IMG/VR virus record: IMGVR_UViG_3300042374_001687
Coordinates: 79,619-143,618 of that record
From: a virus
Length of the DNA stretch: 64,000 bases
Reading direction: 5' to 3' (one strand)
In this document: positions 3,888-61,845 of the stretch, in pieces
How positions within the stretch are numbered: position 1 is the first letter of the stretch
Layout: the number at the start of each line of letters is the position of its first letter
Notes under the pieces: model-generated
Database searches by the model: none
Told to the model about the DNA's origin: nothing
What the model saw: only the letters and a program-made list of their open reading frames with translations
Program-made: the position numbers and the translations under genes

Positions 3888-5702
3888 ATGCAAAATGGAA
3901 AAAATCAATTTCCCGAGGGGTTGGCCTATCCCACCGAGCCTTTTGAAGACTTTTATTTCAAATTTCGGAATACAAAGGAGATGATCGAACATCCCGAATG
4001 GGATGAAATTTATTCAACTTATTACGAACTAGATCCCTACGAAATCGGAATTCCCGTGGGCGAGAAAGTTGAAGATCTTAATTCCTTCCCCGCCGAGAAG
4101 CAGATAGAAGAGGTCATAAAGTGCGCAAAAAGTTTCTTCTATTTTTGCCACCGCTATGTGAAAATCCTACACCCAAAGTTCGGAACGATCCCATTTGTGC
4201 TCTACAAATACCAGCGGAGGGTCATAAAGGAGTACGAATCCAAAAGATTCAACATGATAAGCAAGTTCCGACAGGGGGGTCTAAGCACCGTCACGGTTCT
4301 CTGGGGACTTTGGAAGTGCATGTTCCAAAAAGACCAGCAGATATACTTTCTGTCAAAGACGGACCGAGAGGCTCTGGCCGCAGGTGATATAGCCAGAAGG
4401 GCCATGGACAACTTTCCTTACTGGATGTATGACAAAAATAACGCAGACATAACAAAGCACGAGAAGAGTTTCAACGATGTAGGGTCAAAAATATGTTTCT
4501 ATACGCCCGAGGCGGCTCGAGGCAAGTCTGCCACATACATCATGATAGACGAGGCGGCATTCATAGAAAAAATGGACGAACACTGGAAAGCGATGTATCC
4601 CGTGATCGCAACGGGAGGACACATAGAGATAATCTCTACCGTCAATGGTTTGGGGAACTGGTATGAGGAGACATACCATGAGGCCCAGGCCGGGAGAAAT
4701 TTTTTTAACATCATAGACTTGGACTACTGGGAGCACCCCGTGTATGCGAATCCCGAATGGGCGGCTGCCATGAGGGCGAACTTGGGGGAAAAGGGGTGGC
4801 AACAAGAAGTGCTGCGAGATTTCTTGGGCTCGGGCGATACTTACATATCTTCAAATGTGATAAGCCAATACGACAGAGGAGCCAGAAGTACGGTTCCTGT
4901 CAGGACCGCCTTTTCTAAATGGACAAATGAATCGCAGCAAAAGCAGCAGTGGGATGACGGTGCCTTGTGGATATGGAAAGAGCCAATGGTGGGGCACGAG
5001 TACATAATAGGTGCGGACTGTGCCGAGGGAGTCGGAAAGGACGGCGACAACTCGTGCTTCCAGATAATAGACGCGGTTAGTCTAGAACAAGTCGCCGAAT
5101 TCTACAGCAATTTGGTTCCTCCAAATGTATTCGCCCAGATAATAAACCAGATAGGCATATACTACAACACGGCGACCGTGGTGGTAGAAAACAATTCAGT
5201 AGGAGGTGCGGTCTTAAACAGCTTGAGCAACGACATGGGGTACGAAGCTCTCTATTATGAAAGTAGAAAGTCATCCACCAAGTTGGGAATCAAAATGGGC
5301 CCCTCTAACAGACCAATATTCCTGGAGGCTATGCAGAACAGACTCATGAATGGAACGGTCAGGATAAACAGTCATCGTTTAGTGAACGAGCTGAAGACCT
5401 TCATATACAGCCCCCAGAAAAAGCGAGCCGAGGCGATAAAAGGAAAGCACGACGACGCAATCATGGCCTTGTGCCTCGCTCTGTATGTCAGGGACGAAAG
5501 AATAAGGGGATTGCCTCTGGACATTGAGTACGCGGAACAATCTATACTTGCAAAAAACAGACCAGTAGATGACATAAAAAAAGAGATACTCGAGGGAGGA
5601 GTTTCTGACTGGTTTGAGATAAGATCTGGGGAGGACTCTTTTGCCGAGGATAAGCAAGACAGCAGAAAAAACAGTCCTATACTCAAGGAATTTGGATGGT
5701 AG
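3888..5702 (+). CDS. terL: Terminase large subunit (gp17-like)
   Basis: 604 residues, the usual length for T4-type TerL. It is the packaging motor: an N-terminal ATPase pumps DNA and a C-terminal RNase H-fold nuclease cuts concatemers. A deviant Walker A, KFRQGGLST (126-134), has its lysine at the N-terminal end as in many phage terminases. Walker B is IMIDEA (218-223, catalytic E222) and the coupling motif is around ISTVN (249-253). Nuclease acidic residues are D377 (IIGADCAEG), E434 (VVVENNS) and D522/D523 (KHDDA). No Shine-Dalgarno precedes the ATG at 3888, but a TATAAT box sits 7 nt upstream. Confidence 0.96.
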   Translation: MQNGKNQFPEGLAYPTEPFEDFYFKFRNTKEMIEHPEWDEIYSTYYELDPYEIGIPVGEKVEDLNSFPAEKQIEEVIKCAKSFFYFCHRYVKILHPKFGTIPFVLYKYQRRVIKEYESKRFNMISKFRQGGLSTVTVLWGLWKCMFQKDQQIYFLSKTDREALAAGDIARRAMDNFPYWMYDKNNADITKHEKSFNDVGSKICFYTPEAARGKSATYIMIDEAAFIEKMDEHWKAMYPVIATGGHIEIISTVNGLGNWYEETYHEAQAGRNFFNIIDLDYWEHPVYANPEWAAAMRANLGEKGWQQEVLRDFLGSGDTYISSNVISQYDRGARSTVPVRTAFSKWTNESQQKQQWDDGALWIWKEPMVGHEYIIGADCAEGVGKDGDNSCFQIIDAVSLEQVAEFYSNLVPPNVFAQIINQIGIYYNTATVVVENNSVGGAVLNSLSNDMGYEALYYESRKSSTKLGIKMGPSNRPIFLEAMQNRLMNGTVRINSHRLVNELKTFIYSPQKKRAEAIKGKHDDAIMALCLALYVRDERIRGLPLDIEYAEQSILAKNRPVDDIKKEILEGGVSDWFEIRSGEDSFAEDKQDSRKNSPILKEFGW

Positions 5703-11261: not shown

Positions 11262-11351
11262 GGCGCGATGGCTTAGTATTTAAGCCTTTTTGGGGCGGGT
11301 TCGACTATAATAGTAGAGTCGGCGTATAGATAAACCAAAAGAGAGGTGTCG

Positions 11352-21086: not shown

Positions 21087-22265
21087 TCATTCATATGGTT
21101 TGTGCGTAACCACGACTTCCTTTTTGCCCAATATGTCAAGAAGATTGATGCCTAGAGCATGGATGTCTTTCTTCAAAAAAATATTGTACTCAATATTAGG
21201 ATTATTTTTGACATATTCTCTTGCGCAATCGTACTTCATCTGGGTCTCCAGACTATCGTGAAGATAATCCGCTTTGATTTCGCAAAGAGACAAAACTGAA
21301 TTGTTTTGATACTTGACCAAGAAGTCAGGAAAATAAAGACCGATATTGCCATTGTCTTTCTTGTAGGGAATACAGAAGGGTTCATAATCGTACCATTCAA
21401 CCAATTCTGAATGATCCAAGTGCCAATGGTAAATCAATTCAAATCCAGACCTGAACATGGGATTGGACTTCTTGCACTTTATAGAATCGTAATTACCCCG
21501 CCAAGTGTTCTTGTGCCCAGCATTCCATTTTCCTTGAAGTATTAGTTCAGTTATGGTTTCCCTCTGCTTCTGGTTCCACTCCTCCGGCCTGACGATACCC
21601 TTTGCCCAAGGGTTCGCCCACGACTCGGCCAGCCACTCCTTGCAGTTCTCACGGAGGTAGTCCTTCATCTCCGGCAATTGGTTGTAGTGTTCTACTCCGT
21701 AGCGCTGGAGGGTGGTCTGAGCCATCTTTACCCTGACCTCGGGGGCTTGGGCGGCGTTCTCGACCCCATAGCGCTCTAAGTTGGTCTTCCTTGCTTTCTT
21801 CTTAATCTCCTCGGCTTGCATGGGATTGTCTACGCCGTATTTATCTTGCACGGTTTGTCGCTGACGCTCCTTGGTCTCGTCAAGGTGCATGGGGTGTTCC
21901 ACCCCGTACCTCTCCAAGGATGTCTGCCGGTGCTTCTCCACCCACTGCTTCTTAAAGTCCTCATCCTTGAACTTCGCTTTCCTTTTTTCCACAAGTTCCT
22001 TCTTGTTCATGGGCATTTCCGTGCCGTACTTCTTGAGGCAGGTCTTCTTGGCCTTCTCCTTGATTTCCTTTTTTTTCATGGGATTCTTGCTCTTGAGGAA
22101 GCACTTGCGACATATGTGCTTTCCCTCGTTATCCCTGAAGTTCTTCTCGGCGTAGCGGAGTTTGAGCATCCGTTCACGCCCGCATTCATCAAAGCCCCCG
22201 TCGCAGTCATACTTGATCTTGACCTCGTGGCCCGGCAGTTTGCCCTCAATTTTTTCTAAATACAT
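21087..22265 (-). CDS. PD-(D/E)XK homing-type endonuclease with repeated basic motifs
   Basis: 392 residues. A zinc-knuckle-like start (CDGGFDECG, HICRKCF) is followed by five or six copies of a motif of the form K-x-T-x-LERYGVEHPMQ, a repeat seen in phage homing-endonuclease proteins and likely to bind DNA. The C-terminus has FELIYHW, then YFPDFLVKYQ and LCEIKAD, i.e. the E...PD...E-x-K catalytic series. It lies just 3' of the capsid gene, a classic homing target. The ATG at 22265 has no strong ribosome site. Confidence 0.8.
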   Translation of the reverse strand: MYLEKIEGKLPGHEVKIKYDCDGGFDECGRERMLKLRYAEKNFRDNEGKHICRKCFLKSKNPMKKKEIKEKAKKTCLKKYGTEMPMNKKELVEKRKAKFKDEDFKKQWVEKHRQTSLERYGVEHPMHLDETKERQRQTVQDKYGVDNPMQAEEIKKKARKTNLERYGVENAAQAPEVRVKMAQTTLQRYGVEHYNQLPEMKDYLRENCKEWLAESWANPWAKGIVRPEEWNQKQRETITELILQGKWNAGHKNTWRGNYDSIKCKKSNPMFRSGFELIYHWHLDHSELVEWYDYEPFCIPYKKDNGNIGLYFPDFLVKYQNNSVLSLCEIKADYLHDSLETQMKYDCAREYVKNNPNIEYNIFLKKDIHALGINLLDILGKKEVVVTHKPYE

Positions 22266-22291
22266 ATTGATTTCTCCGATTGATTGACTAT

Positions 22292-22297
22292 TATATA
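22292..22297 (+). promoter_or_regulatory. Start-proximal TATATA box
   Basis: TATATA 6 nt before the ATG at 22304 with no Shine-Dalgarno between; it fits the leaderless-promoter pattern. Confidence 0.5.
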
Positions 22298-22303
22298 TGT
22301 AGT

Positions 22304-23848
22304 ATGACAGACATAAAAAATCAATATCAAATGGCCAATATAATAGTGCTTGATGAAATCAAGGAACCTACATGGATGAAAAGGACGCTGGCGGCCGAGA
22401 GGGTAGCGAATCCGAATACATTCATCTTTTTCAGGCACGAATGGAACGAGCGTTCGGAGCATATACTTTCACACATCAATTCCTATTCGCAGGATCGGTT
22501 CAAAATACATGCACGAAAGTGCACCGTCAAAAAGATCAGGTCTAAGCAGCATAGGGATTTTTGCGACCTCCACCACATCCAAGGATCAAACAAACTAACC
22601 CTCTCTGCGTTCGGGATATTTTTAGGCGACGATCTTCTGGGCGTTCTGTCGCTCGGAAGGCATAACAGAGACAGCAAGGCGACTGTGCTTGATCGTCTGT
22701 GTTTTAAGGCGGGGTGGCGGGTTGTGGGTGGAGCCAGCAGACTTTTCTCCGCCGCCAAGAAATGGGCCTTGGAGAACGGCATCTATTCCATAGTCAGTTT
22801 CAGCGACAACAGAATGAGCCTGGGTACGGTTTACGAAAGGCTAGGTTTTGAGATTGATTGCGAACTGCCTCCCGATTACATCTACATCAAGGCTGACGAC
22901 CCCGGCGTCGCCTTCAGCAAACAGAGCCAGCGCAAGAAAGTCACCGGATGTCCTTCCGATGTGACCGAGAAGGAGTGGGCAAGCAGGCAGGGCCTTGTTC
23001 AGGCTTTCGACGCCGGAAAGAAGAGGTGGTTGCTCAAACTCCGATTGCACAAAGAAGTGCCGTTGAAGAGCAGGAGGCAGGGATATTACGAGACGAAAAA
23101 GGCCAACCCTAGGGTTTTGTACTACCAGTCCAGCTACGAACTGAAAGCGGCAACCATATTGGACGAGATGGACGATGTGAATTCTTACATTAGCCAGCAC
23201 ACTTTCACGATGGACGGAAGGGAGAGGGTAACTGATTTCATAGTAACATGGAAGGACGGATCAAAAACCATACTTGAAATCAAGCCGGAAAGGAGGATTG
23301 AACAGTTCAGAGAGCAGATAGGGGACAACAAGGAGTACGCTAGGCGGAACGGGTGGAAGTTCCAAATATGGACGGAGAAAGAACTCGGATTCCAAACCGA
23401 GTATTTCGCGACCAAGTGGGCCGACGAGTTCATATCAAAGATCACCAAAGTAGACTTCGTTCAAGAGAGAAAGGACAGAAATCTCACCAAGTCAAAGAAA
23501 TACTATGCCGAGAAGATCGCCACCAACAAGGTCTCCGTCTTCTGCGAGTACTGCCAGACGACGCATGAGGCTCTTAGATTGACTCACGACAAGAACATAG
23601 CCCGCAACGGCCGGTACATTTGTGAACGCGAGGGAGGGCATATAGCGGGCAGCAAGCCCAAGCTCCATCTCAGAAAGGACAACCCCCATGCCGCCGATGG
23701 GAAGAAGCAGTGCTTGGGTTGCAAGCAAGTTCTATCCTTTGATAATTTCGGCACGGACAAGGTTCGTGCGGACGGGTACGCCAGCAAGTGCAAGGAGTGC
23801 AGGAGGAAGGCGGCGAACGAGAAATATGCCAAGAAGAAGGCTACTTGA
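22304..23848 (+). CDS. Hef-like homing endonuclease: GNAT-like domain, PD-(D/E)XK domain, zinc fingers
   Basis: 514 residues from the ATG at 22304; 22280 is a TTG alternative. The N-terminal half (HARKCTVKKIRSKQHRDFCD, GVLSLGRHNRDSK, VVGGASRLFSAA) is the acetyltransferase-like domain found before Hef-type homing nucleases. The nuclease domain has SSYELKAATILDE, VTDFIVTWKDG and ILEIKPE, matching E...D...E-x-K. Two Cys clusters at the end (CEYC...C...H and CLGCKQ...CKECR) are zinc fingers. It is divergent from the other nuclease next to the capsid gene. Confidence 0.82.
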   Translation: MTDIKNQYQMANIIVLDEIKEPTWMKRTLAAERVANPNTFIFFRHEWNERSEHILSHINSYSQDRFKIHARKCTVKKIRSKQHRDFCDLHHIQGSNKLTLSAFGIFLGDDLLGVLSLGRHNRDSKATVLDRLCFKAGWRVVGGASRLFSAAKKWALENGIYSIVSFSDNRMSLGTVYERLGFEIDCELPPDYIYIKADDPGVAFSKQSQRKKVTGCPSDVTEKEWASRQGLVQAFDAGKKRWLLKLRLHKEVPLKSRRQGYYETKKANPRVLYYQSSYELKAATILDEMDDVNSYISQHTFTMDGRERVTDFIVTWKDGSKTILEIKPERRIEQFREQIGDNKEYARRNGWKFQIWTEKELGFQTEYFATKWADEFISKITKVDFVQERKDRNLTKSKKYYAEKIATNKVSVFCEYCQTTHEALRLTHDKNIARNGRYICEREGGHIAGSKPKLHLRKDNPHAADGKKQCLGCKQVLSFDNFGTDKVRADGYASKCKECRRKAANEKYAKKKAT

Positions 23849-24109: not shown

Positions 24110-26356
24110 TCACATTAAACTTCTTATAATTTGAGAACAATAAGATTCATAAGACAACAATTGTTGTGAAATAAACTCAACCCTGTCGCCCACAGTTTTA
24201 CCTTGCCCTTCAAATATTGGGTTGTAAAAAATAGGATTATTAAATTGTAAGTTTAAAATTTCTTTGTGGAAAACTCTAAGATTTTCAAATATATTGATCC
24301 AATTAAACTTAAAATCGTCTTTTATGAATTTATCTATCGAGCTTACAAGTTCCTTTGAATTAAAATTAATACTTCTAAAATCTCTTCTTATATCAAAGTG
24401 ATAGGAAGGCTCAAGATTTAAGTGATAATCACCACCACCATCACCAGAATTTAAATTATAAAAACAACCACTATTTTGATATCTGTATATTTTTGTCATT
24501 GGATTTATCGGACCATAAATTATAAAACTAGGTGTGTTTAGTAGTTGTGCAATATGAGAAGGCCCAGAGTCTATGCCTATAAAAAGAAATGCATTATTTA
24601 TAAAAACAAACATATCTTTTATAGATCCAACATCCCTTTGATCGAATAAAATATTTTTGTTTTTATATTCTTCTATTTTTTTTTCATACTCATTACAATA
24701 AAATTTATTTTCTTTTTTGAGTCTTTGTCCAATTAAAACAATTTTATAATCCCCAGAAAGATAATCTATCAGATCTATAAACTTATCTTGCTTTGGCATC
24801 CTTCCTTCAAAACCTACTCTTTGAGAATCCAGATGTAGCACCACATATTTTTCTTCGATAGGATTAAAGTTAGAATCAAATTTTTCTATAAATTGCTTGA
24901 TCAAGTAAGGGTTTGTATCTGTTTCAACAACATTTAGTTTTGCACATATCAAATCAATAGTGTGCATTGGGTATGAATAATTTAAACTAGTCAAATTGTA
25001 AATTGTATCATAATTTGCTTGATCAAAATCATTTACGATTTTTATTTTTGGTAGAAGTTCGTATAGAAAATTAAGTTTATTTGTGGACAAAGATATGTCA
25101 ACATTATTTAATTTATGTTGCATTAAGCAACTAGAGACAGGGTATAGTGCATCTACCATATCTCCAAAACCATCTACATTCAAATTTATCAATATTCTGT
25201 TTTTAAATTCTTTTGATTTTAATGATAAATATTTTCGCCATCTACAAAGAAATTTAGATCTATTTAATTCAACAATAGAGTTTTTAATTGATTCTGGTAT
25301 TTTATTTGAGCTTTGTGCTCTTTTATGATAAATTTTTATATTTATGTTTTCTTGCTCAAATCCAATTTGTTTTGCCCGTAGACAAAAATCTACATCCTCG
25401 AAATAAAAATATCTATATAGGTTATCAAAACCGGACAATTGTTTAAAAACACAAGATCTTATGAATAAAACAGAGCCTTCGCTATAGTCTGGTGTTTGTT
25501 TATATTGAGTTTTAATATCGTGTCCACATCCAAATTCATTTACAAATTGAGGCAGATTAGATGAACCTACTATAGCGACATTTGGTCTTGATTCGAAAAT
25601 ATAAACCGCCTCATTCAGCCAATTAAAATCTTCTATTTCAATGTCATCGTTTAAACACAAAAACAAATCGCTTTCTTGTTGATCAAAGTTTTTGTTGTGC
25701 CCTTTGCCATAACCTATATTATAGTTGTTGTAAAAACAAACTGATAGATATTTAAGTTCTGATTTAATTTGAAGGCAAGCGTCTTTTATAATTTCTTGAT
25801 TACAATCAAAAGAATTATTTCTAATAAATAGTGTTATACTCTCACACCCCATTAGCTCCAATTGCTTGAAAATTCCATAACATGTTTTTTTAATGAAATC
25901 TACTACAGATTGTTCTGGCTGGTATAGCAAAACGGATACTAACACTTTGGTTTTTGGTGACATTTTATACAGCTTGTTTTGAACGTAGTGCTCTGTTGGT
26001 AAATCGAGCATGGATTTTTTGTATATCCTTTTTTCTTTTGAACCGTGTAGTAGAAAATGTTGTGCTGCTTTTTCTTTTGAGTCTAAGTGTTTTAACTCCT
26101 TGTATCTTTCAACATATGAGATCCAATCAAAATCTTTTGGTATCAAATTCTCTAGCTGGCTTTTATTTTTAAAATTATTGGGTGCATAAGTTTTATAATG
26201 ATAAAATAACCTGTGTTTGTCGTCATAGTTATTCTCCGTGCAATAAGGCTGATAAAAATTTTTGGTTTCGGGATTTTGAGTTTGATAAAACGCTTCATCG
26301 AAATCTTCATCAATAGAATTGACTTCATAAAATTCTTTTATGTTTAAAATTTTCAT
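24110..26356 (-). CDS. Two-domain glycosyltransferase, GT2 fused to GT9
   Basis: 748 residues, about 30% GC. An N-terminal module (FYQPYCTENNYDDKHRLFYH) is shared with the protein encoded at 27057-28364. Next comes a GT2 domain with a DXD-type site in LCLNDDIEIEDF and an acceptor motif YRYFYFEDVDFCLRAKQIGF. The C-terminal half has the GT9 (heptosyltransferase) signature FIGIDSGPSHIAQLLNTPS. The combination suggests building or extending a lipopolysaccharide-like or virion glycan. Its start overlaps the sulfotransferase stop by ATGA. Confidence 0.82.
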   Translation of the reverse strand: MKILNIKEFYEVNSIDEDFDEAFYQTQNPETKNFYQPYCTENNYDDKHRLFYHYKTYAPNNFKNKSQLENLIPKDFDWISYVERYKELKHLDSKEKAAQHFLLHGSKEKRIYKKSMLDLPTEHYVQNKLYKMSPKTKVLVSVLLYQPEQSVVDFIKKTCYGIFKQLELMGCESITLFIRNNSFDCNQEIIKDACLQIKSELKYLSVCFYNNYNIGYGKGHNKNFDQQESDLFLCLNDDIEIEDFNWLNEAVYIFESRPNVAIVGSSNLPQFVNEFGCGHDIKTQYKQTPDYSEGSVLFIRSCVFKQLSGFDNLYRYFYFEDVDFCLRAKQIGFEQENINIKIYHKRAQSSNKIPESIKNSIVELNRSKFLCRWRKYLSLKSKEFKNRILINLNVDGFGDMVDALYPVSSCLMQHKLNNVDISLSTNKLNFLYELLPKIKIVNDFDQANYDTIYNLTSLNYSYPMHTIDLICAKLNVVETDTNPYLIKQFIEKFDSNFNPIEEKYVVLHLDSQRVGFEGRMPKQDKFIDLIDYLSGDYKIVLIGQRLKKENKFYCNEYEKKIEEYKNKNILFDQRDVGSIKDMFVFINNAFLFIGIDSGPSHIAQLLNTPSFIIYGPINPMTKIYRYQNSGCFYNLNSGDGGGDYHLNLEPSYHFDIRRDFRSINFNSKELVSSIDKFIKDDFKFNWINIFENLRVFHKEILNLQFNNPIFYNPIFEGQGKTVGDRVEFISQQLLSYESYCSQIIRSLM

Positions 26357-27057
26357 AAGTAAAAATTCTCTATAAGATCTAATTCTAATTTAAGTTTTTT
26401 TTCCAGATAGTTTTTTAAATTTTCGTTAATTTTTAAATCTTCTTTTTTGTTTTTGATATTGTTATATACATTTTTTAATTTTAGCGAAAAGGGATTAATT
26501 TGGTTAAATCTATCAATACAAGTCTGCATTTTTTCTTGGATAAAAATAAAGTTATATTTTTTAATTTCTTCTTTTGCTATTTCAAATTTTTCTTCTAAGC
26601 TTTTATCCTCATAGCCACAAAGCATATTCATTGTTTCGTGCCCAAATTTTGATATAAAACTATTTAATTCGTCTATTTTTAAATCTTTTGGATGCTTTTT
26701 TTCAAAAAACAAACAGTGACTTATAAATCTGCTTATAGGATTTCTTATGGTAAAAATTCTATAGGTCTCCTCTTGTTTTAAATTAAATTGATCTTCTATA
26801 AAGTTCGCGTAACTATGATCTATAAAAGCCTTTGTTCCTTTGTGTATTGCTTTTATGCAACACATATCTCTATGAAGACTTATATTCCCATGTGTTAGCA
26901 TAGAAATATAAGTCGGATTGTTTGAAAAATATTCGTTTTCTTTAAAAGCATCATGAAATGAATGCCTTAGGCTGCTCCCTGCACATTTTGCCACATGATT
27001 TAATACTAAGTATCTAAACACTAGTAAATCCTTGTATATCCAAAACCTTGTTTCCAT
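26353..27057 (-). CDS. Sulfotransferase family protein
   Basis: 234 residues, AT-rich. LNHVAKCAGSSLRHSFHDAF is the 5'-PAPS loop and YRIFTIRNPISRFISH the 3'-PAPS motif of carbohydrate sulfotransferases (Sulfotransfer_2 type). The end is Lys/Asn-rich and helical. It is coupled to both neighbours: TAATG with the upstream RgpF-like gene and ATGA with the GT2-GT9 gene. The likely acceptor is the glycan made by these neighbours; this is inference. Confidence 0.78.
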   Translation of the reverse strand: METRFWIYKDLLVFRYLVLNHVAKCAGSSLRHSFHDAFKENEYFSNNPTYISMLTHGNISLHRDMCCIKAIHKGTKAFIDHSYANFIEDQFNLKQEETYRIFTIRNPISRFISHCLFFEKKHPKDLKIDELNSFISKFGHETMNMLCGYEDKSLEEKFEIAKEEIKKYNFIFIQEKMQTCIDRFNQINPFSLKLKNVYNNIKNKKEDLKINENLKNYLEKKLKLELDLIENFYL

Positions 27058-28364
27058 TATTCTCCATAAGATTTCTCCTCCACTATTTGCGACTTGTAAT
27101 GTAAATTTACATCTTTCTTTATTTTTGCTCTTATATCATTAAATTGATATACCTGTCTTGCGGTTTGTGTAAACTCATCATCAAATCGACCAGTAGATTC
27201 TATGTGTCTTATCTTATCTTCTACTTCCCAAAGTTTTTTGTTTATGTTTATCAATTTATCGAAAAATAATAAATAATTTTTATCATAATTGATTTTTTTT
27301 GACTCTAATACAAGTTCTAAAGATTTAAGTTCTTTGCAAATGTTTTTGCTTTTTTTTTCATCGTTTATTTTTATTTTTTTAATTGTTAATATCGTTACTT
27401 TATCAATCAAATCGCCAACAGATGTCGGGACAAATAATTTAGATTCTTCGTTTTTTTCTCCAAGAACATAAATTCTTTTGTTAAATTCCCTTATCATATT
27501 TCCAAACAATCTCTCAAAAGCGTGGGCAATTGTACCATCTGATTTGTGTCTTTTTTCAAAAATATCAACATTTAAATTTGTTAAAAAATAATTGATAATG
27601 TCATATCTAACAACAAACATGGTGCCATAAATAAAGTCTATAGTATTATCTTCAATCTTTAGAAGCTTTCTAATTTTATTAAAATTTTTTTCATTGATAA
27701 AATCTTGCTCATGAGTTAACGACAACCTTGTGTTTGGAGAGCCGATCATTCCAATCGATTCTTCAACCTCAAGAAGCAATACTATAGAGCTTAAGTTTTT
27801 ACAAAGATTTTTATAAACACTATTTCTAAAACAGTGTGTCCAAAATTCATTGGTTTGCGAAGACTTTTTAGTATGAAGTTTTAGGATATATTTATATTTT
27901 TTCCCAGTAGAGTTAATGTGTTGAATAGTTTTTACAAACGGAGCAATATCAGCTCCTGAATTTTTTAATAAAATTATATTCGACTCTGGAATTTGTTCTT
28001 TAATTGTTTTTTCGTACTCTTTATTGTTTATTGTAATGTAGATATCTCTTGGAACATCTAAGTTTTTAATTAACGGTTTTATTTCTTGCTCCCACACTTC
28101 AAAATAATGCACATGAACTATTATGCATATTTTATCCTTTATTGGACAGAAATCATAATCATAATAATTTAATAACTCTTTTCTATTTTTAAACCGCCCT
28201 ATTCCTTCGTTTTTATAAAGACTATAATGATAAAACAACCTTCTTCTATCATCTATGTTGTTTTCTTGACAATAAGGCTGATAAAAACAAATAGTCTCTG
28301 GGTATAGGGAGGAGTAGAAGTTTTCATCAAAATCAATGTCTATTGATATTTCTTTGATATCCAT
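27057..28364 (-). CDS. RgpF-like glycan synthesis protein with DUF6165 domain
   Basis: 435 residues, AT-rich. The N-terminal module (FYQPYCQENNIDDRRRLFYH) is almost the same as in the GT2-GT9 protein. The middle (ICIIVHVHYFEVWEQEI, LKNSGADIAPFV, YILKLHTKKS) matches rhamnan-synthesis protein F. The C-terminus (SVGDLIDKVTILTIKKIKI, LWEVEDKIRH, IVEEKSYGE) matches DUF6165. It heads the three-gene AT-rich cassette; the only upstream signal is AT-rich sequence without a clear ribosome site. Confidence 0.75.
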   Translation of the reverse strand: MDIKEISIDIDFDENFYSSLYPETICFYQPYCQENNIDDRRRLFYHYSLYKNEGIGRFKNRKELLNYYDYDFCPIKDKICIIVHVHYFEVWEQEIKPLIKNLDVPRDIYITINNKEYEKTIKEQIPESNIILLKNSGADIAPFVKTIQHINSTGKKYKYILKLHTKKSSQTNEFWTHCFRNSVYKNLCKNLSSIVLLLEVEESIGMIGSPNTRLSLTHEQDFINEKNFNKIRKLLKIEDNTIDFIYGTMFVVRYDIINYFLTNLNVDIFEKRHKSDGTIAHAFERLFGNMIREFNKRIYVLGEKNEESKLFVPTSVGDLIDKVTILTIKKIKINDEKKSKNICKELKSLELVLESKKINYDKNYLLFFDKLININKKLWEVEDKIRHIESTGRFDDEFTQTARQVYQFNDIRAKIKKDVNLHYKSQIVEEKSYGE

Positions 28365-46383: not shown

Positions 46384-46608
46384 ATGAAGTCCCTCATAAA
46401 GCAAGACAGTTATTGGTACGTTGATGGCGAGGACGACGACGCAAGGATGATGGCCCTATGTTCTATCTGCGCCAAAAAGCAGAACAAAGGGTGGCTTTGG
46501 AAGGGGGAAATGGGGTACGGGAACTATGATTTGTTCTGTGCGTCTTGTAAAAATGCCATCCATATAAGGGAGAATAATGAGGCTAAAGCCAATAATAAAG
46601 GTCAGTGA
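46384..46608 (+). CDS. Small zinc-finger protein
   Basis: 74 residues with CSICAKK and FCASCKN, two CxxC pairs about 25 residues apart forming one zinc site. It overlaps the methylase gene by 32 nt. Function unknown. Confidence 0.6.
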   Translation: MKSLIKQDSYWYVDGEDDDARMMALCSICAKKQNKGWLWKGEMGYGNYDLFCASCKNAIHIRENNEAKANNKGQ

Positions 46609-47290
46609 AAGCAAGAGCTACCTTGTTTCATGGATTATAGAAAAATTCCCGGAAGGATACCAGAACATGGTTTACATAGAGCCCTTTCTGGGGTCCGGGG
46701 GGGTTCTCTTGAACAAGGAGCCCTCGCGCGAGGAGTGTGCCAATGATCTGGATCCGGGTGTCATGGACATATGGAGGGCTCTAAGGGACGAGCCAAAGTT
46801 GTTTACATCCAAGGCAAGAAGGATGGAATACAAGGAGGCAACTTTCAAGCGACTTCTTAAAAAAAAGGAGACCGACTACTTGGCGAGGGCCGTGAACGAG
46901 TTTGTCCTCAGACAGATGAGCAAGAGTGGGTTGAAGAAACACTTTCTGCCCAAGGAAAAGAGTGTCAAGTGCAAGGATTGCTGGCAGGAGGTATTTGAGA
47001 AGATACCGGCCATTTCCGAAAGGATTGATAAAGTACACTTGTTGGATCAAGACGCCATAAAAATACTGGGCTCTTTCAGTCACAAGGACACTCTTGCCTA
47101 TTGCGATCCCCCATCCACGAAGGAGATGAGTCCGGACAAACATGTGGAACTGGGCGAGGTTTTGAAAAACTTCAAGGGCAAGGTGGTAATAAGCGGCTCC
47201 AACACCCCCCTCTACAAACGAATATATTCCGGCTGGGTTCGGAAGGGCATTCCCGGGCGTCCCAAGGAATGCATATGGACGAATTTTTGA
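46577..47290 (+). CDS. Dam-like (D12 class) adenine methyltransferase with altered motif IV
   Basis: 237 residues. YIEPFLGSGGVLLNK (33-47) is motif I and LAYCDPPS (173-180) motif IV, where the usual catalytic DPPY is DPPS. The remaining D12 landmarks (ECANDLDPGVMDIWRALRDE, VVISGSNTPLYKRIY) fit. It would methylate adenine in GATC-like sites, but the missing Tyr may lower or change activity. The start lies inside the zinc-finger gene. Confidence 0.75.
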   Translation: MRLKPIIKVSESKSYLVSWIIEKFPEGYQNMVYIEPFLGSGGVLLNKEPSREECANDLDPGVMDIWRALRDEPKLFTSKARRMEYKEATFKRLLKKKETDYLARAVNEFVLRQMSKSGLKKHFLPKEKSVKCKDCWQEVFEKIPAISERIDKVHLLDQDAIKILGSFSHKDTLAYCDPPSTKEMSPDKHVELGEVLKNFKGKVVISGSNTPLYKRIYSGWVRKGIPGRPKECIWTNF

Positions 47291-48507: not shown

Positions 48508-49788
48508 TCAAATTGCATTTTCCATAAAGGAAAAGGCCTCGTCGGCATCTAGTTTAGAAAATGTCAAGTGAGGCCTTAGCCTCACGGACTTTTGGCCGCA
48601 GGGCAAGGCCAGCATGTTTTTGCTCAAAATCTTCAAGAATTCATCCCTTTTTTCAGGGCTTTGAAGATCGAACGATATCATCAGCCCCCTTCCCCTTATG
48701 TTGGTAGCCTTGCCGTGGAAAGATTTGAGGCGTTGAAGAAAATATTTTCCGACATGGTAGGCATTGTGTATCAGATCTTCCTCTTGTATTATTTCCATCT
48801 GCATGGTGGATCTGACCATATCCACCAAATTCCCGCCCCATGTAGATCTCAGTCTGGACGGCTCCGAGAAGACATTGTCCTTGACCTCGTCCAGCCTTTC
48901 GCAAGCGCATATTCCCGACACCTGAACTTTTTTTCCAAAACACAGTATGTCGGGGATGACGCCAAAATGCTCGTACGCCCATGTCTTGCCTGTTAGGCCG
49001 AGGCCTGTCTGGACCTCATCGAAAATCAGAAGCGATTCATAGCGATCAGCCAGATCCCTGAGCTTTGACAGGAATTCCGCCCTGAAGTGGTTGTCGCCGC
49101 CGTCACCCTGTATCGGCTCTATCACGATGGCTGCGACATCCTTTTTTTCCAACGCCTTTTTGATTTCATTTATCGCTATGGTTTCTGAATTCTTGGCCTT
49201 GATCTTGTCTATTCCATCAAGTTCGTGCCACACCTTGGGATTGTGCACCTTCTTCCAGTTGAATTTCGGGAAGCCGTAGGTCTTTAGATTTTTTGCAGAT
49301 TGGCTGTTCGTCATGGACATTGTGTATCCGCTGCGTCCATGGAAGGCCTCTTTGAAATAGATGACCTGCAGGGCGTTGTGTCCCTTGTCATCGGACAATC
49401 CCATCTTTTTGCCTTTCCAGTCAAATGCTGCTTTTAGGGCATTTTCTACAGCCAGGGCTCCGCCATTTATGTAGAAATGATGACAGAAGTCCGGAGTGAA
49501 CTCAGAGAACTTTTTGACAAAATCTGCGTAGTGCGTCGTGTAGGTGCATGAGTTGGCTATGCTGTTGACGGCGACATCGGCAAGTCGCTGTTTCTGGGCA
49601 GTCATCTTGGGATGATTCCAGCCCAAGGCTTGGCTGGAGAGTTGGGACGAGCAGTCCAGATATTGATTTCCCGTTCTAGCGTCTACCACCCATGAACCTT
49701 GACTTCTCTCAAGGTCAACAACGATTGACCTGCTGTCTACCAGAAGCCTTGATTCAAGAATCTCAATCACATCATTGGGATTGGTCAT
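48508..49788 (-). CDS. L-lysine 6-aminotransferase-like class III PLP enzyme
   Basis: 426 residues from the ATG at 49788, which shares ATGA with the upstream gene; a longer frame exists but adds non-family sequence. [20 protein letters not shown] (with Asp257 binding the PLP nitrogen), [14 protein letters not shown] (Lys286 or Lys287 as the PLP lysine) and [12 protein letters not shown] follow the pattern of lysine epsilon-aminotransferase. That enzyme converts lysine and 2-oxoglutarate to aminoadipate semialdehyde and glutamate. The use to the phage is unclear. Confidence 0.8.
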
Positions 49789-50111
49789 GTCCTCTCGTAT
49801 TTGTGCCTGAACTTGCTCATCTCTATGGTTTCCACATAGTCGTATAGGCACTTTTCGTTGTTTTCGGAAACTTCTCTTAGTTTATATACGGCGACCCTTT
49901 GGTTTCCGTCAATCTGGTCTTCGCCGAGATATTCTATGAGTTTCTCCCCGAGGGTCTCCCTTTGCATTTCTTGACCATTGATCAGTCTCTTAATTATGGT
50001 CGGCGGCTGCTGTGCATTAAGTTCTATCGCTATGTCCAAGCATCCGTCCGCCGGGCCGCCAACTAGCATGGCGTCCCATTCGTAGCCGTATCCCTCGTTT
50101 TTCATATCCAC
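49785..50111 (-). CDS. Hypothetical protein upstream of aminotransferase
   Basis: 108 residues, or 106 from the next ATG. Begins with YGYEWDAMLVGGPADGC, with a Gly-rich turn. It overlaps the upstream gene by 10 nt and the aminotransferase by 4. Not recognised. Confidence 0.55.
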   Translation of the reverse strand: MDMKNEGYGYEWDAMLVGGPADGCLDIAIELNAQQPPTIIKRLINGQEMQRETLGEKLIEYLGEDQIDGNQRVAVYKLREVSENNEKCLYDYVETIEMSKFRHKYERT

Positions 50112-50428
50112 CCCTCCAGTATCGCCCTCTTTATCTCCTTTGTTGTGACCTTTCTTCCAAGGGCCTCAGACACTGCCTTTATGAATTCCCTTTCTATCTT
50201 CTGTTGCTCTTGAATAAGAAAATTGAAGCCCTTGCTCTTGGCCTCCAGGAACCTCAGCACGTCTATCGTGAAATCCAGCTTCTTACCGTCCAAAAAAACG
50301 GCTTTTTCCACTCCGTCTTTTGCAGGATTAGACCCCATTGAGCGCATTCTTACCTCAAACTTTCGCTTGAAGTTTCCCTTGTCATCCATTGGAGGGACGT
50401 CTGTGTATATAAACCCTTTGTCTTCCAT
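50102..50428 (-). CDS. Hypothetical protein
   Basis: 108 residues, helical and basic at the end (SEALGRKVTTKEIKRAILEG). TAATAT-CGC lies just before the ATG. Not recognised. Confidence 0.55.
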   Translation of the reverse strand: MEDKGFIYTDVPPMDDKGNFKRKFEVRMRSMGSNPAKDGVEKAVFLDGKKLDFTIDVLRFLEAKSKGFNFLIQEQQKIEREFIKAVSEALGRKVTTKEIKRAILEGWI

Positions 50429-50488: not shown

Positions 50489-51001
50489 ATGGAAAATTTG
50501 TGGCTGGAGTCTTCTATAGCGGAACTGTACAAAACGACGGTCGACGCGTTCCCCAAGACCACAAAAAGACAATTCTCTACCGATCCAGTGGTGATAGAGC
50601 ATTTAGAATGGGTTCCTTTCCTAGGAATGAAGACGCTATTCATCAAGGGGACGGCAAAAAACGAAGGGAGAAAAAACGAATCCATATTGCTGTTCAAGGG
50701 GGTGAGATACAAGGTCAGGGAGGAAAAGGGGGCGGTGCCGTTAAGAACTTCCGACGGAAGAGTTGTGTTCCTAGAGCAGATATCGTCAAAGGAAGATGAT
50801 GTTCTGGTGCGGTGCACATGCAAGGACTTCTCGTACAGATTTAATTACTACAACAGCTTGAACGGTTCGCTTTTTGGAAGAAAAAGAACCAAATACGAGG
50901 GGAAGGGATTGTGGGAGGCCAATCCCCAAGAGGCTCCTGGGATGTGCAAACATCTCATGAAAATGGCCAAAATACTGCGGGAATCAAAATTATTAGTGTA
51001 G
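50489..51001 (+). CDS. SWIM-type zinc-finger-like protein
   Basis: 170 residues. VRCTCKDFSYRFNYYN and, further on, PGMCKHLMKMAKIL give a CxC...CxH zinc site of SWIM type, which binds nucleic acid or protein. The N-terminus is beta-rich. No Shine-Dalgarno; the TATATA box sits just upstream. Confidence 0.62.
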   Translation: MENLWLESSIAELYKTTVDAFPKTTKRQFSTDPVVIEHLEWVPFLGMKTLFIKGTAKNEGRKNESILLFKGVRYKVREEKGAVPLRTSDGRVVFLEQISSKEDDVLVRCTCKDFSYRFNYYNSLNGSLFGRKRTKYEGKGLWEANPQEAPGMCKHLMKMAKILRESKLLV

Positions 51002-51023: not shown

Positions 51024-51587
51024 ATGACACACATGATTAATCCCAAGATAACCCAAGCACAGAAGTTCTTGATAATAGGGACAATATTGGGTGGAAGTTC
51101 AATAATAAAGCCCCAAAAGGGCAAAAATTGCTATATGTCCATGAGGGACAAGGACTTGGCATGGCTTAAGTTCAAGGCCGAGCAGCTCAAAGATTTGACA
51201 TCCCAATCCCCCATGACGATCGAGAAGACCAACAGGTGGCATTCCGTATGCTACCCGCTTTTCAATGAATACCATGAAATGTTCTACAAAGGCAAAAACA
51301 GGATTTTGAAGATAGAGCACCTTAATCTTCTCCACGACTCCAGCATAGCCATATGGTTCGGCGATGCTGGGAAGTGCAAGGGGAATCATGTGGTCTTGAA
51401 TACCAACATATGGGGAAAAAAGGGAACGGACATGGTCGTAGAATACTTCAAAAGCTTGGATTGGGAGTCCGAGGCATTTTTGGAAAGAAAGAACTACCGC
51501 GTTCGTCTGGACAAGGGCTCCTCGGAGGAATTCCTCAAATTGGTCAGCCCCTATCTTCCCAAGGATAGAAAATGTGGTCGAGAATAG
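51024..51587 (+). CDS. Degenerate LAGLIDADG-family protein
   Basis: 187 residues. LIIGTILGGSSIIKPQKGKN is a first LAGLIDADG helix that has lost its acidic residue (usually GDG), and SIAIWFGDAGKCKGNHVVLN is the second, retaining one Asp. With one catalytic Asp missing, cleavage is doubtful; it may bind DNA or be a decaying homing endonuclease. The ATG at 51033 is an alternative. Confidence 0.68.
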   Translation: MTHMINPKITQAQKFLIIGTILGGSSIIKPQKGKNCYMSMRDKDLAWLKFKAEQLKDLTSQSPMTIEKTNRWHSVCYPLFNEYHEMFYKGKNRILKIEHLNLLHDSSIAIWFGDAGKCKGNHVVLNTNIWGKKGTDMVVEYFKSLDWESEAFLERKNYRVRLDKGSSEEFLKLVSPYLPKDRKCGRE

Positions 51588-57375: not shown

Positions 57376-57813
57376 ATGTTCAATGAAACTGCGAATCCTA
57401 TCGGCGTCGTGAGAAAAGTAGACGAGATAGAAAAAAAGATTGAAAAATATCAAAAACTTTGGGATTTAGAGAAGAAAAAAAGAGCATTCACTCTTAAGGC
57501 TCCAAATCTTCATAAGATCACCAACTTTCTTCTGATGGTTCTGGATGATTTTGTGGTGACGATCAGTACGGTACTAATATGCGGTCCGGATAAGAAGGCG
57601 ACAGTTCTGGATGCTTTGGATCGCCTTTACGAATATACGGTCAAAGAGGCCATGCCGATATGGATGAGGCCCTTTGCCGCTCCTATAAAGCATTACATCG
57701 TATATGTGCTTGTTTCTAGTGCAATAGATTGGATGGTTGAAAAGTATCAGAGCGGTTCATGGAGGCCATCACTAGAAAAAGAATTTTTTGAGTCTTCAAG
57801 GAGGTGGGCATGA
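57376..57813 (+). CDS. Hypothetical protein before the protease
   Basis: 145 residues; AAGGAGG precedes the ATG. Helical with two moderately hydrophobic stretches (ITNFLLMVLDDFVVTISTVL, HYIVYVLVSSAIDWMV), so membrane association is possible. The stop shares ATGA with the protease gene. Confidence 0.65.
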   Translation: MFNETANPIGVVRKVDEIEKKIEKYQKLWDLEKKKRAFTLKAPNLHKITNFLLMVLDDFVVTISTVLICGPDKKATVLDALDRLYEYTVKEAMPIWMRPFAAPIKHYIVYVLVSSAIDWMVEKYQSGSWRPSLEKEFFESSRRWA

Positions 57814-58745
57814 ACAACGAAAATTTAAGCCTATTCCCCTACGAAAGGGAGGAGGTTTTTTCTATACAAGACGCCAAGCAGAAGGCAGGATGGAACATAA
57901 CGGCATTTGATCTTCCAAATGCTTGGAAGAAGTCTAGGGGATACGGAGTCAAGATTGCTGTTATAGACACAGGAATTGATCTGGATCATCCTGACCTAAA
58001 TAAAAATATTATTCCCGGAGCAAACATCATAGATCCTTCTAAAATGCCGTGGGACGACAACCAGCATGGAACGCATGTGGCTGGCATAGTAGCAGCGGAG
58101 AACAACGAAATAGGCATGGTTGGCGTGGCTCCAGATGCGAAAATAATTCCCGTTAAGGTTCTGGATAGAAACGGAAACGGCACGATAAGCAATGTTGCCA
58201 ACGGCATAAGGTGGGCCGCTTCCGAGGGCAAGGCCGACTTGATATGCATGTCTCTTGGGGCGCCGAATCACACGCCCGAGGTGCACGAGGCAATCAAGTA
58301 TGCGGCATCCAAGAATGTTGTGTGCTTCGTTGCGGCCGGGAACTCGGGATTGACCAAGAGCGTTTTCTATCCGGCAAACTATCCCGAAACAATAGCGATA
58401 GGCTCAATAGACGAGAGCCTTAGAAGATCTAGTTTTAGCAACACAGGGGACAATCTTGACTTTATGTGTCCCGGCGGAAAGATATTTTCTACAGTTCCAG
58501 ACAACTGGTACGCTGTGCTTAGCGGAACCAGCATGGCAGCTCCTTTTGCTGCGGGGGTGGCGGCATTAGTGCTATCGCACGCCCGGAACACTGATTTGAA
58601 CTTGGTTTTGAATAGTGCCGAAGACTACAGGAATGCTTTTAGGGAGCACACTATCCCCATAACCTGCGAAACATTCAAAAACAACAAGTTTTATCAAGGC
58701 TTTGGAATATTAGAGCCAAAGAAGATACTAGAGGCCTTTGGCTGA
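57810..58745 (+). CDS. Subtilisin-like serine protease (S8)
   Basis: 311 residues from the ATG at 57810 (AAGGAGG upstream). The catalytic triad is Asp in IAVIDTGIDLDHPDL, His in NQHGTHVAGIVAAE and Ser in GTSMAAPFAAGVAAL, with the oxyanion Asn in CFVAAGNSG. There is no signal peptide and little or no propeptide, so it should act in the cytoplasm or in the virion. Possible roles are degrading host proteins or processing virion parts. Confidence 0.93.
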   Translation: MNNENLSLFPYEREEVFSIQDAKQKAGWNITAFDLPNAWKKSRGYGVKIAVIDTGIDLDHPDLNKNIIPGANIIDPSKMPWDDNQHGTHVAGIVAAENNEIGMVGVAPDAKIIPVKVLDRNGNGTISNVANGIRWAASEGKADLICMSLGAPNHTPEVHEAIKYAASKNVVCFVAAGNSGLTKSVFYPANYPETIAIGSIDESLRRSSFSNTGDNLDFMCPGGKIFSTVPDNWYAVLSGTSMAAPFAAGVAALVLSHARNTDLNLVLNSAEDYRNAFREHTIPITCETFKNNKFYQGFGILEPKKILEAFG

Positions 58746-59321: not shown

Positions 59322-60814
59322 GGATTTGGCGTGCTTGTAGGAACGGGTGACTTAACACATTCGCATATTTCGCAATCTAGTGCGTAGGAATATCCGGGGT
59401 CATTTATTAGACCGCAGTCCGCGTATATTGCCGAACCTCCACATTCAATGAAGTGACATTCGGAGTTAACTGTCAAAGTTGGCGTGCTTGTGGGCGTCAC
59501 AGACACGGCAGGGGTTGCGGTCAAAGTTGGAGTGCTTGTGGGCGTCACGGGCGACTTAACACATTCGCATATTTCGCAATCTAGTGCGTAGGAATATCCG
59601 GGGTCATTTATTAGACCGCAGTCCGCGTATATTGCCGAACCTCCACATTCAATGAAAATACAAGAAGCAGACACCGTTGCGCTGTTGCTGTAAACTTGGT
59701 ATTGAGATCCTATTATGCCCATCGCAACTCTTACCCTGTACCTTCTCCCGGACACATATGTTGCTGGATCTTTGATCCTAAGGTTTCCGCCGACATACGA
59801 TATGTTCGTCCCCGGATCAATGCTACTGTAGGCATTTACGGACTCTACGGTGGGGTTTTCGGACCATGTCGCCCCTTCATCGTCACTGTATTGCCAATAG
59901 GGGGTGTTTCCGATAGATGTGTTGTAGGAATAAGAGAATTCAATTTCGTTTCCGGAAACATACGGCTGATTGGATGGCTGCTGTGTCCATGTCAATGAAG
60001 AGGTGGAGAAAGCGAATGGCTTGCCAGAAATCTTGAATACAAAATAATCATTTTCCTTGAAATCTGTGTTTGGCGAAGTGGTTCTTTTTATCCATATCGG
60101 GACAAAATCGCCGGGCCGCAATGTGCCAAGAGCAACCCGTTGAGAGGCCGCATAAAAATTCACTTTTGCTGGGGGTATCGTTTCCACGGCAAGAAGCGGG
60201 GCATTTGAATTTATAGGCTGTCCCTCGGAGAGTTTTAAAATAGATACGGAAATTGCGCCTTCCAGATTATTTTGACTCACCACTAACTTTTGATGATTTC
60301 TTTTGTCTTGGTTTCCTTGGAATGTGATGTTGAAGTTTTGCGAACTGGCCGACAAAGATGTCGAAACCTCAACTCCTTCTAGGCCAATGGAGGCCAGGCC
60401 AGAAATAAGATTGTTCTGGAAGTTTTGGGCAGAGCCCTCCCAATTGACTACAAATTGAGCTTGTTCGTATTGAAGAATTAAATTGCCGCTAGTGACAGAG
60501 CCTTTTATTTCTATACTTTGAATATCGGTCACTATCGCTATGCCCACTTCGGCAGAAGATCCTCTCGAGGATTGCGAATCTATGTAGCACTCAATATCAT
60601 ACAAGTATTCCGTAGAACTATTGTTTTTAACATAAAAGCATCTGAAGTCGGTCTTGCCGGCAATTGCTTCGGCAGAGGTCACATCCGCAAATAAATTGTT
60701 CAAGGATCCGAGCACGGGAAAGGCGGACGGAGGTCCGCCAATTGATCTGTTTGGGTTGGAGTTTCCGCTTCCTCCGGAAAGGAAAAAATTGATTTGTGTT
60801 GCTGCTGTGGCCAT
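59318..60814 (-). CDS. Virion protein with duplicated Cys-rich C-terminal units
   Basis: 498 residues. NFFLSGGSGNSNPNRSIGGP is typical of the start of phage head/tail surface proteins. The middle is beta-rich with an Ig-like part (PYVSGNEIEFSYSYNTSIGN). The C-terminus repeats a unit (FIECGGSAIYADCGLINDPG, then YSYALDCEICECVKS) twice, joined by a Pro/Thr linker (TPTSTPTLT). A TAAATAAT box lies at 60829-60836. Probably a surface fibre or decoration protein. Confidence 0.7.
   Translation of the reverse strand: MATAATQINFFLSGGSGNSNPNRSIGGPPSAFPVLGSLNNLFADVTSAEAIAGKTDFRCFYVKNNSSTEYLYDIECYIDSQSSRGSSAEVGIAIVTDIQSIEIKGSVTSGNLILQYEQAQFVVNWEGSAQNFQNNLISGLASIGLEGVEVSTSLSASSQNFNITFQGNQDKRNHQKLVVSQNNLEGAISVSILKLSEGQPINSNAPLLAVETIPPAKVNFYAASQRVALGTLRPGDFVPIWIKRTTSPNTDFKENDYFVFKISGKPFAFSTSSLTWTQQPSNQPYVSGNEIEFSYSYNTSIGNTPYWQYSDDEGATWSENPTVESVNAYSSIDPGTNISYVGGNLRIKDPATYVSGRRYRVRVAMGIIGSQYQVYSNSATVSASCIFIECGGSAIYADCGLINDPGYSYALDCEICECVKSPVTPTSTPTLTATPAVSVTPTSTPTLTVNSECHFIECGGSAIYADCGLINDPGYSYALDCEICECVKSPVPTSTPNP
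59349..59656 (-). repeat. 104-bp identical direct repeat in the Cys-rich C-terminus
   Basis: 59349-59452 and 59553-59656 are identical by eye, offset by 204 bp (68 codons). The linker between them is itself Pro/Thr-repetitive. Confidence 0.93.
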
Positions 60815-60891
60815 TTTTAAGTACCCAATTATTTAGTCAAAGCCTTGACATTTTGGGTAGCGCCGTTCAAAATGTGGTCGGAGGCAAAGAA

Positions 60892-61845
60892 ATGAAGTTC
60901 ACATTCGGAAGCGACCCTGAATTCATTCTGATGGGCCAAAATGGCAAGTTCAAAAGCGCAATAGGGGTCATAGAAGGAACGAAGCAAAGCCGCCTCACCA
61001 TCGGCAAAAATGATTTTTTTTACGACAATGTGCTCGCTGAGTGTACCATAGAGGCCGCCTCCTGCAAAGAGGAGGCGATAGAAAACATCCGAAAAGCATT
61101 GGGCACATATTCCAAGATAGTTCATCCCTTTAAGCTGACGAACATTTCGGCGGCTGAATTTCAAAAAAATGAACTTATGCACCCGGATGCAAGAAAAGCA
61201 GGGTGCGAGGCTGAGTATTGTGCTTATGAAATGAAGAATGTGCCGGCGGGCGGCATCAAGAAGATTTTCAAAGAAAGTGGATTTAGAACAGCCGGGGGGC
61301 ATGTCCACTTGGGGACAAGTTTGGGAAAATCGCACGAAACTTGCATCATGCTGGTCCGGATGTTGGATCTTTTTCTCGGAGTCTCATCCATTCTAATAGA
61401 TGGTCGCGAAAGTAGTGTCCTAAGAAGAAGAGCGTATGGAAGTGCAGGAAGATACAGGCAGCCCAAACACGGCGCAGAATACAGAACTCTTGGGAACTTT
61501 TGGATATCCAGTCCAAAGTTAGTCACATTGGTATATGAAATATGCGAAAATGTAATTAAATTCACTGAAGACAACGTTCATGAAGAATTTTGGTCTATAG
61601 ACAAAAAGAAGTTGGATTCCGATGAATTCTGGAATTCCGGAGGGGATCCTGCGGCCTGCCACTGTTGTAAGGCTTATGATGTGAACTTGCTTAGATCCAT
61701 GTTCAGATTGAGGAGAGAGGAGGCTATCAAAAGGGGCTCTTCAATAATAGATTTCGCCCTCAGTTTCTTTCCTGCGTCGATAAAAAGAAGGATAAATGAA
61801 CTAGGATCCAAGAGGTTCAACATGTACAAGGAGTGGGGGATTTAA
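60892..61845 (+). CDS. COOH-NH2 ligase (amidoligase family)
   Basis: 317 residues from the ATG at 60892 (GGAGG 9 nt upstream). FTFGSDPEFILMGQNGKFKS, YDNVLAECTIEAAS and TAGGHVHLGTSLG match the phage-type COOH-NH2 ligase with a glutamine-synthetase-like fold, which joins a carboxylate to an amine using ATP. AYGSAGRYRQPKHGAEYRTL is a later conserved block. The substrate is unknown; peptide or wall modification has been suggested for the family. Confidence 0.8.
   Translation: MKFTFGSDPEFILMGQNGKFKSAIGVIEGTKQSRLTIGKNDFFYDNVLAECTIEAASCKEEAIENIRKALGTYSKIVHPFKLTNISAAEFQKNELMHPDARKAGCEAEYCAYEMKNVPAGGIKKIFKESGFRTAGGHVHLGTSLGKSHETCIMLVRMLDLFLGVSSILIDGRESSVLRRRAYGSAGRYRQPKHGAEYRTLGNFWISSPKLVTLVYEICENVIKFTEDNVHEEFWSIDKKKLDSDEFWNSGGDPAACHCCKAYDVNLLRSMFRLRREEAIKRGSSIIDFALSFFPASIKRRINELGSKRFNMYKEWGI

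Follow-up and report, generated by a model that had tools for sequence, protein, structure and literature searches.

The gene at positions 48508–49788 of the analysed DNA belongs to a virus-only clade of lysine 6-aminotransferase (LAT) homologues that recurs in large environmental viruses; it is not a stray host gene. The whole stretch analysed (the window) has 64,000 nucleotides and comprises bases 79619–143618 of a 143,618-base virus record. The gene product (P0001, 426 amino acids) is a phage-clade LAT homologue and probably a PLP aminotransferase, and its specificity for lysine is doubtful. The chances are about even that the enzyme works as a PLP aminotransferase and that its specificity for lysine is changed or weakened. 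For the clade as a whole, it is possible, although we hold this only tentatively, that giant phages own a LAT clade that pairs with phage glutamate dehydrogenase as a lysine dehydrogenase, and that a few lineages, including that of the window, have been re-aimed or have become pseudoenzymes.

The LAT reading frame is an uninterrupted ORF of 426 codons on the minus strand (window positions 49788 to 48508). It comes last in a run of three minus-strand genes that are coupled by 4-base ATGA overlaps in a co-transcription arrangement. The other two are the small genes c5 (50102–50428), which comes first, and c32 (49785–50105), which lies directly upstream of LAT. The ATG of c32 overlaps the stop of c5, and the ATG of LAT overlaps the stop of c32. 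Neither c5 nor c32 has a Pfam or NCBIfam family above cut-off or a PHROG match, and the coupling to two genes without a known family agrees with an earlier reading made from the sequence alone (the sequence-only reading). Alternative GTG starts are present at 49851, which gives a LAT of 447 amino acids, and at 50111 for c32; the family alignment fits the ATG start of LAT. On the plus strand, the divergent neighbour c2 (50489–51001) is conserved and has a Cys/His pattern that, by eye, is like a SWIM zinc finger. It matches phrog_18980, which is annotated in PHROG as unknown function. It is followed by c1 (51024–51587), a LAGLIDADG endonuclease (PF03161, E 2e-19) that is conserved in the same block. 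The window also contains a terminase large subunit gene (3888–5702) and a T4-like portal gene (11346–13841). Because both are present, the record is that of a tailed phage, and the phage location claimed earlier is borne out.

In the family comparisons, the window protein matches Pfam PF00202 over profile positions 6–403 of 403 (288.1 bits, E 1e-85; gathering score 30.5 bits). Its best NCBIfam family is LAT_fam (TIGR03251, L-lysine 6-transaminase; 493.7 bits, E 3e-148), which is 266 bits ahead of the next-best family at 228 bits. This score is below the curated TIGR03251 cut-off of 520.8 bits. Two viral relatives, L002 (525.6 bits) and L092 (546.6 bits), are above the cut-off, and L096 (506.7 bits), L094 (488.6 bits), L111 (477.8 bits), L003 (417.6 bits) and L132 (354.7 bits) are below it. 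The best solved structure is the Mycobacterium tuberculosis LAT Rv3290c (2cin; E 1e-107). Matches of this strength lie well outside what chance would give. The window protein falls short of the cut-offs for acetylornithine aminotransferase (ArgD; 206.9 against 410 bits) and ornithine aminotransferase (TIGR01885; 170.1 against 378.4 bits).

The maximum-likelihood tree contains 45 viral LATs (the window protein counted), 41 bacterial LATs (40 of 80 loci plus that of M. tuberculosis) and five E. coli sequences. It omits the partial sequences L009 and L126, the frameshifted L130 (seven stops) and the near-copies L121, L123, L125 and L127. In this tree, all LATs are split from E. coli argD, gabT, patA, astC and bioA with 100/100 support. 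The window gene descends from the LAT branch and not from ArgD, GabT, PatA or BioA. The sequence-only reading had placed the gene in the LAT group and named a grouping with acetylornithine aminotransferase as the result that would count against this; no such grouping appears, and the membership holds as a statement of descent. Descent from another class III branch (acetylornithine, GABA, putrescine or DAPA aminotransferase) is very improbable. The fold and the PLP residues are common to all of these branches, and 70 NCBIfam families match the window protein, but the lead of LAT_fam and the position of the five E. coli sequences outside the LAT branch contradict such a descent, which is rejected. 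The viral LATs form one clade (98/97 support) that is nested among bacterial LATs, the order of which lacks resolution. A single origin of the viral LATs is supported but not proven, because the bacterial loci are the best 80 of at least 594 stretches, among which a nearer bacterial relative may exist, and because the viral loci were gathered with virus-seeded patterns, which favour the appearance of one viral clade.

Residue roles are those given in the available text of PMC9780415, and positions were mapped by alignment of 50 viral sequences (L009 and L130 excluded) and 80 bacterial sequences. In the window protein, the PLP pocket is intact. Residues G110, A111, F149, H150, E224, D257, V259, Q260, K286, S315 and T316 correspond to G128, A129, F167, H168, E238, D271, V273, Q274, K300, S329 and T330 of the M. 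tuberculosis enzyme, so that the PLP sites noticed earlier are present, including the Schiff-base lysine (K300, here K286) and the aspartate Asp271 (here D257). Both substrate arginines are also kept (R170 as R152 and R422 as R403). Three positions are changed. The glutamate switch E243 is replaced by D229 (codon GAC), N328, which the partner subunit places at the active site, is replaced by R314 (codon AGA), and V63 is replaced by L50. Glutamate occupies the E243 position in 47 of the 50 viral and all 80 bacterial sequences, and asparagine occupies the N328 position in 44 of 50 and 77 of 80, respectively; neither the D229 nor the R314 state has another case among these 50 viral and 80 bacterial sequences. 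E243 is also kept in four more viral LATs from a scan with c5 and in one from a scan with aldehyde dehydrogenase.

According to the available text of PMC9780415, E243 screens R422 and thereby directs the reaction of lysine to its epsilon-amino group. Judged from the residues, the shorter aspartate beside a new arginine could weaken the choice of the epsilon-amino group. A search of open papers found no mutants of the M. tuberculosis LAT. On testing, the score fell below the curated cut-off and the glutamate switch proved to be replaced, and for these reasons the window protein is not filed as an L-lysine 6-transaminase. Lysine specificity, as the sequence-only reading had worded it, is not supported by the score of 493.7 against 520.8 bits or by the changed equivalents of E243 and N328.

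Relatives of the window protein, close and distant, differ in how far the active site departs from the common state. Among 66 columns that are at least 98% constant in 122 other LATs, the window protein breaks three. In the comparison of these near-constant columns, which used 45 viral sequences, L132 has 21 breaks, L003 has 11, L002 has two, L092 has one and the median of all sequences is zero. L003, which is 75% identical to the window protein and is its closest sister, falls with it in the same clade with 100/100 support. At the positions of E243, K300, N328 and R422, it has Y, D, C and S, respectively; it also has a 17-residue deletion and smaller gaps, and all of its length changes are in frame. 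In L002, the glutamate switch is kept and the F167 position is V. L132 is 39% identical to the window protein and sits on a very long branch; it lacks the equivalents of R170, E243, D271, K300, T330 and R422, and its frame is open over 425 residues. The product of the L132 gene (L132:8001–9275) is thus a LAT homologue of full length in which the main catalytic residues are all missing; on sequence grounds, it is a candidate viral pseudoenzyme. Another relative, L011:7452–9197, has a LAT frame joined to an N-terminal HNH-like extension (581 amino acids), which could reflect either a fusion or an artefact of gene calling.

Among the window protein, L002, L003 and L092, pN is 0.15–0.27 and pS is saturated. 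Because pN is far below the saturated pS, the LAT gene is inferred to have been under constraint for most of its history, a statement about its past and not its present state. The window protein, L002 and L003 are equally distant from L092, and no acceleration of rate is visible in these distances; the saturated synonymous sites rule out a dN/dS branch test of relaxation.

As a fold-type I, class III PLP enzyme, the ancestral protein would take an omega-amino group, that of lysine, and give it to 2-oxoglutarate. This reaction would convert lysine and 2-oxoglutarate to allysine, which closes to piperideine-6-carboxylate, and glutamate. In many relatives, a phage glutamate dehydrogenase could regenerate 2-oxoglutarate from the glutamate, and the pair would act as a lysine dehydrogenase that gives NAD(P)H and ammonium. 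In the window enzyme, the internal aldimine and transamination would still be possible. An altered or weakened specificity is suggested because E243 and N328 have changed (to D229 and R314) while all PLP contacts remain. If this reading of the clade is true, the lysine pool would supply the infecting phage with nitrogen, allysine and reducing power, and an active clade would show that phages tap lysine in infection.

Two other readings of the function bear on this one. The window LAT may already be, or may be becoming, a non-catalytic pseudoenzyme whose LAT fold now serves a different purpose, such as the binding of a host protein or of PLP, or it may be a decaying gene; we regard this as a real but minority possibility. 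It is favoured by L003, which shares the 100/100 clade, lacks the Schiff-base lysine, glutamate switch and R422 and has a 17-residue deletion, with length changes that are all in frame, by the open frame of L132 despite its missing catalytic residues, and by the lack of a glutamate dehydrogenase in the window record. The window copy, however, retains every PLP contact and both arginines and breaks only three of the 66 near-constant columns, and L002, which is equally close, scores above the LAT cut-off. These features argue for retained catalysis in the window copy. With L003 and L132, there is a natural gradation between intact enzyme and pseudoenzyme in which both the change of specificity and the loss of catalysis are directly testable.

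It is unlikely that the substrate of the viral clade is ornithine or another omega-amine instead of lysine, with a route from arginine to ornithine, glutamate semialdehyde and glutamate. The arrangement that suggests it is that of group B (below; 16 of 52 viral LAT loci), where LAT directly follows an aldehyde dehydrogenase gene and an arginine-dihydrolase-like gene. The latter gene is absent from the lineage of the window, however, and in 44 of 80 loci the same aldehyde dehydrogenase family is accompanied by c38, a saccharopine/lysine-dehydrogenase-like gene, mostly without LAT, which points to allysine. All of the LAT-specific family scores are also above the ornithine aminotransferase scores. 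A changed or weakened specificity for lysine on a working PLP aminotransferase is the preferred reading of the window protein.

Neighbour genes were clustered around 52 viral LAT loci and compared with those of 80 bacterial LAT loci, and the viral loci show two settings. Group A, to which the window belongs, consists of c1 (LAGLIDADG), c2 (Cys/His), c5 and LAT; it comprises 29 of the 52 loci as judged by c5 and may continue with a trypsin-like gene (by Pfam; 17 of 52) and glutamate dehydrogenase (11 of 52). Group B consists of aldehyde dehydrogenase, the arginine-dihydrolase-like gene and LAT, often with a UDP-glucose-dehydrogenase-like gene (14 loci) and a glyoxalase-like gene (13 loci). The group B arginine-dihydrolase-like gene has Sll1336/ArgZ and Alr4995 as its best structures (E 1e-54) and Arg_dihydro as its best NCBIfam family, with 233.5 bits of a 450-bit cut-off. 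One viral clade spans two unrelated-looking neighbourhoods in large uncultured phages, with viral aldehyde and glutamate dehydrogenases as partners.

Within group A, c1 is present in 28, c2 in 25 and c5 in 29 of the 52 viral loci, and c32 is present in six (the window, L002, L003, L092, L094 and L095); none of the four occurs in the 80 bacterial loci. In the lineage of the window, c5 lies directly or one gene upstream of LAT. The AF2 model of c32 (pLDDT 47) was discarded, and that of c5 (pLDDT 84.6) has no fold match at E ≤ 0.001 in PDB or BFVD. The c5 scan yields 34 loci, 15 of which are on contigs outside the earlier set. Four of these 15 have LAT and glutamate dehydrogenase, and 11 have neither in view, four of the latter having less than 2 kb of downstream sequence. 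The case for c5 as a functional partner of LAT is weakened because 11 of the 15 fresh loci have no LAT match in view.

Phage glutamate dehydrogenase is found 2–5 kb downstream of LAT in many relatives. Among c5 loci with at least 5 kb of downstream sequence, 13 have LAT and the dehydrogenase, 12 have LAT only, none has the dehydrogenase only and seven have neither (count based on 43 loci, near-copies L121, L123 and L125 omitted). Glutamate dehydrogenase thus occurs in 13 of 25 LAT-bearing and in none of seven LAT-lacking loci (Fisher p 0.025, kinship ignored). In a tree of c1, c2 and c5 that covers 39 of the 43 loci, the presence of LAT changes five times, and the link between LAT and glutamate dehydrogenase has the expected direction and is not significant (four independent pairs, median p 0.25). 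The count is suggestive of a linked loss of the two genes and is not significant on the tree.

In whole-record searches of 16 LAT-bearing records, aldehyde dehydrogenase is found in four and glutamate dehydrogenase in six. In the window record, which may be a fragment, neither a glutamate dehydrogenase (a search without its own positive control) nor an aldehyde dehydrogenase is found. The suggestion that the gene might feed amino-acid metabolism is plausible from the neighbours of its relatives, but the window record itself lacks both partners. LR756511.1 and a 381-kb contig, both of group A, contain aldehyde dehydrogenases that are unlinked to LAT. These are 57–60% identical to the group B enzymes and about 36% identical to those beside bacterial LATs; therefore, the viral form exists in both groups. 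A scan for the viral aldehyde dehydrogenase yields at least 80 loci in uncultured viral contigs (L175–L254). Among 80 of these, LAT is in view in 14, the arginine-dihydrolase-like gene in 15, c38 in 44 and a glyoxalase-like gene in 42. By Pfam, c38 is saccharopine/lysine-dehydrogenase-like, and its best structure is 3abi (record title PH1688), which we take to be a lysine dehydrogenase. Because c38 is present at 44 and LAT at 14 of the 80 loci, the two may be alternative sources of the same aldehyde. The aldehyde dehydrogenase family is a widespread viral module that is apparently undescribed.

Phage genes for amino-acid metabolism are usually single, recent copies from hosts. In the viral_contigs scan, the window protein as seed finds two viral relatives, a three-row alignment finds seven and an eight-row alignment finds 49 loci; the largest of the contigs has 533 kb. 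Of the 50,697 named phage records, 63 give any match; among the 40 of these matches listed, one is more than 50% identical (LR756511.1, 595 kb) and the other 39 are at most 31.2% identical. The claim that such a gene is not usual for phages therefore stands for named records and is misleading for uncultured viruses, given 49 loci in one scan. The window gene comes from a single uncultured record, and host DNA or a chimeric assembly would be one way to account for it. This is hardly credible, as the c1-c2-c5-LAT block recurs in many viral contigs, c5, c2 and c1 are absent from all 80 bacterial LAT loci and the viral sequences cluster alone in the tree. Host contamination is rejected in the main by this shared viral synteny.

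The nearest characterised relative of the window protein is the M. tuberculosis LAT, which is in the same branch and shares the class III fold, the PLP lysine, the aspartate for the pyridine nitrogen, both substrate arginines and the length. The window protein differs from it in the E243, N328 and V63 replacements and in its score below the curated cut-off. The setting also differs, in that the window LAT adjoins the phage genes c5 and c32, whereas many bacterial LATs are preceded by aldehyde dehydrogenase (in view in 39 of 80 loci). The huge phage LR756511.1 has a LAT, 52% identical, directly after c5. Unlike the window, it lacks c32, and its LAT residue set is intact except that V63 is replaced by H and A129 by T. 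It also encodes a viral-type aldehyde dehydrogenase elsewhere in the record, and a whole-record search found no glutamate dehydrogenase. A literature search, mostly outside subscription journals, found no paper describing a phage LAT, and the words lysine and aminotransferase are absent from the main text of a huge-phage paper as far as it was available (PMC7162821). The available text of PMC9992855 describes phage-encoded amine and polyamine enzymes whose substrate has shifted from that of the parent family. The likeness to the window gene lies in phage-borne amino-acid or amine metabolism with a shifted substrate; lysine aminotransferase is not among the enzymes in that text.

Several other features are present in the window. 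The T4-like portal gene contains an intein splicing domain (Pfam PF14890, residues 156–330). At 21087–23848, two neighbouring genes point in opposite directions, and both join a TnsA-like endonuclease domain to homing-endonuclease-like parts; a Mom/GNAT-like domain and an endonuclease VII-like end are present in the second as well. GC content drops to about 27% in an island at 24110–28364, compared with 46.5% for the window as a whole, and the island carries three genes on the minus strand. These match glycosyltransferases, rhamnan synthesis RgpF and, below cut-off, a sulfotransferase, and the island has the appearance of recently imported surface-glycan genes. A D12-class adenine methyltransferase (46577–47290) has, by eye, the motif DPPS where relatives such as L105:13749–14546 have DPPY, and it may be inactive. 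A COOH.NH2 ligase-like gene (60796–61845; phrog_3815, E 5e-47) lies about 3 kb from a protease-like gene (57804–58745; phrog_3677, E 6e-85).
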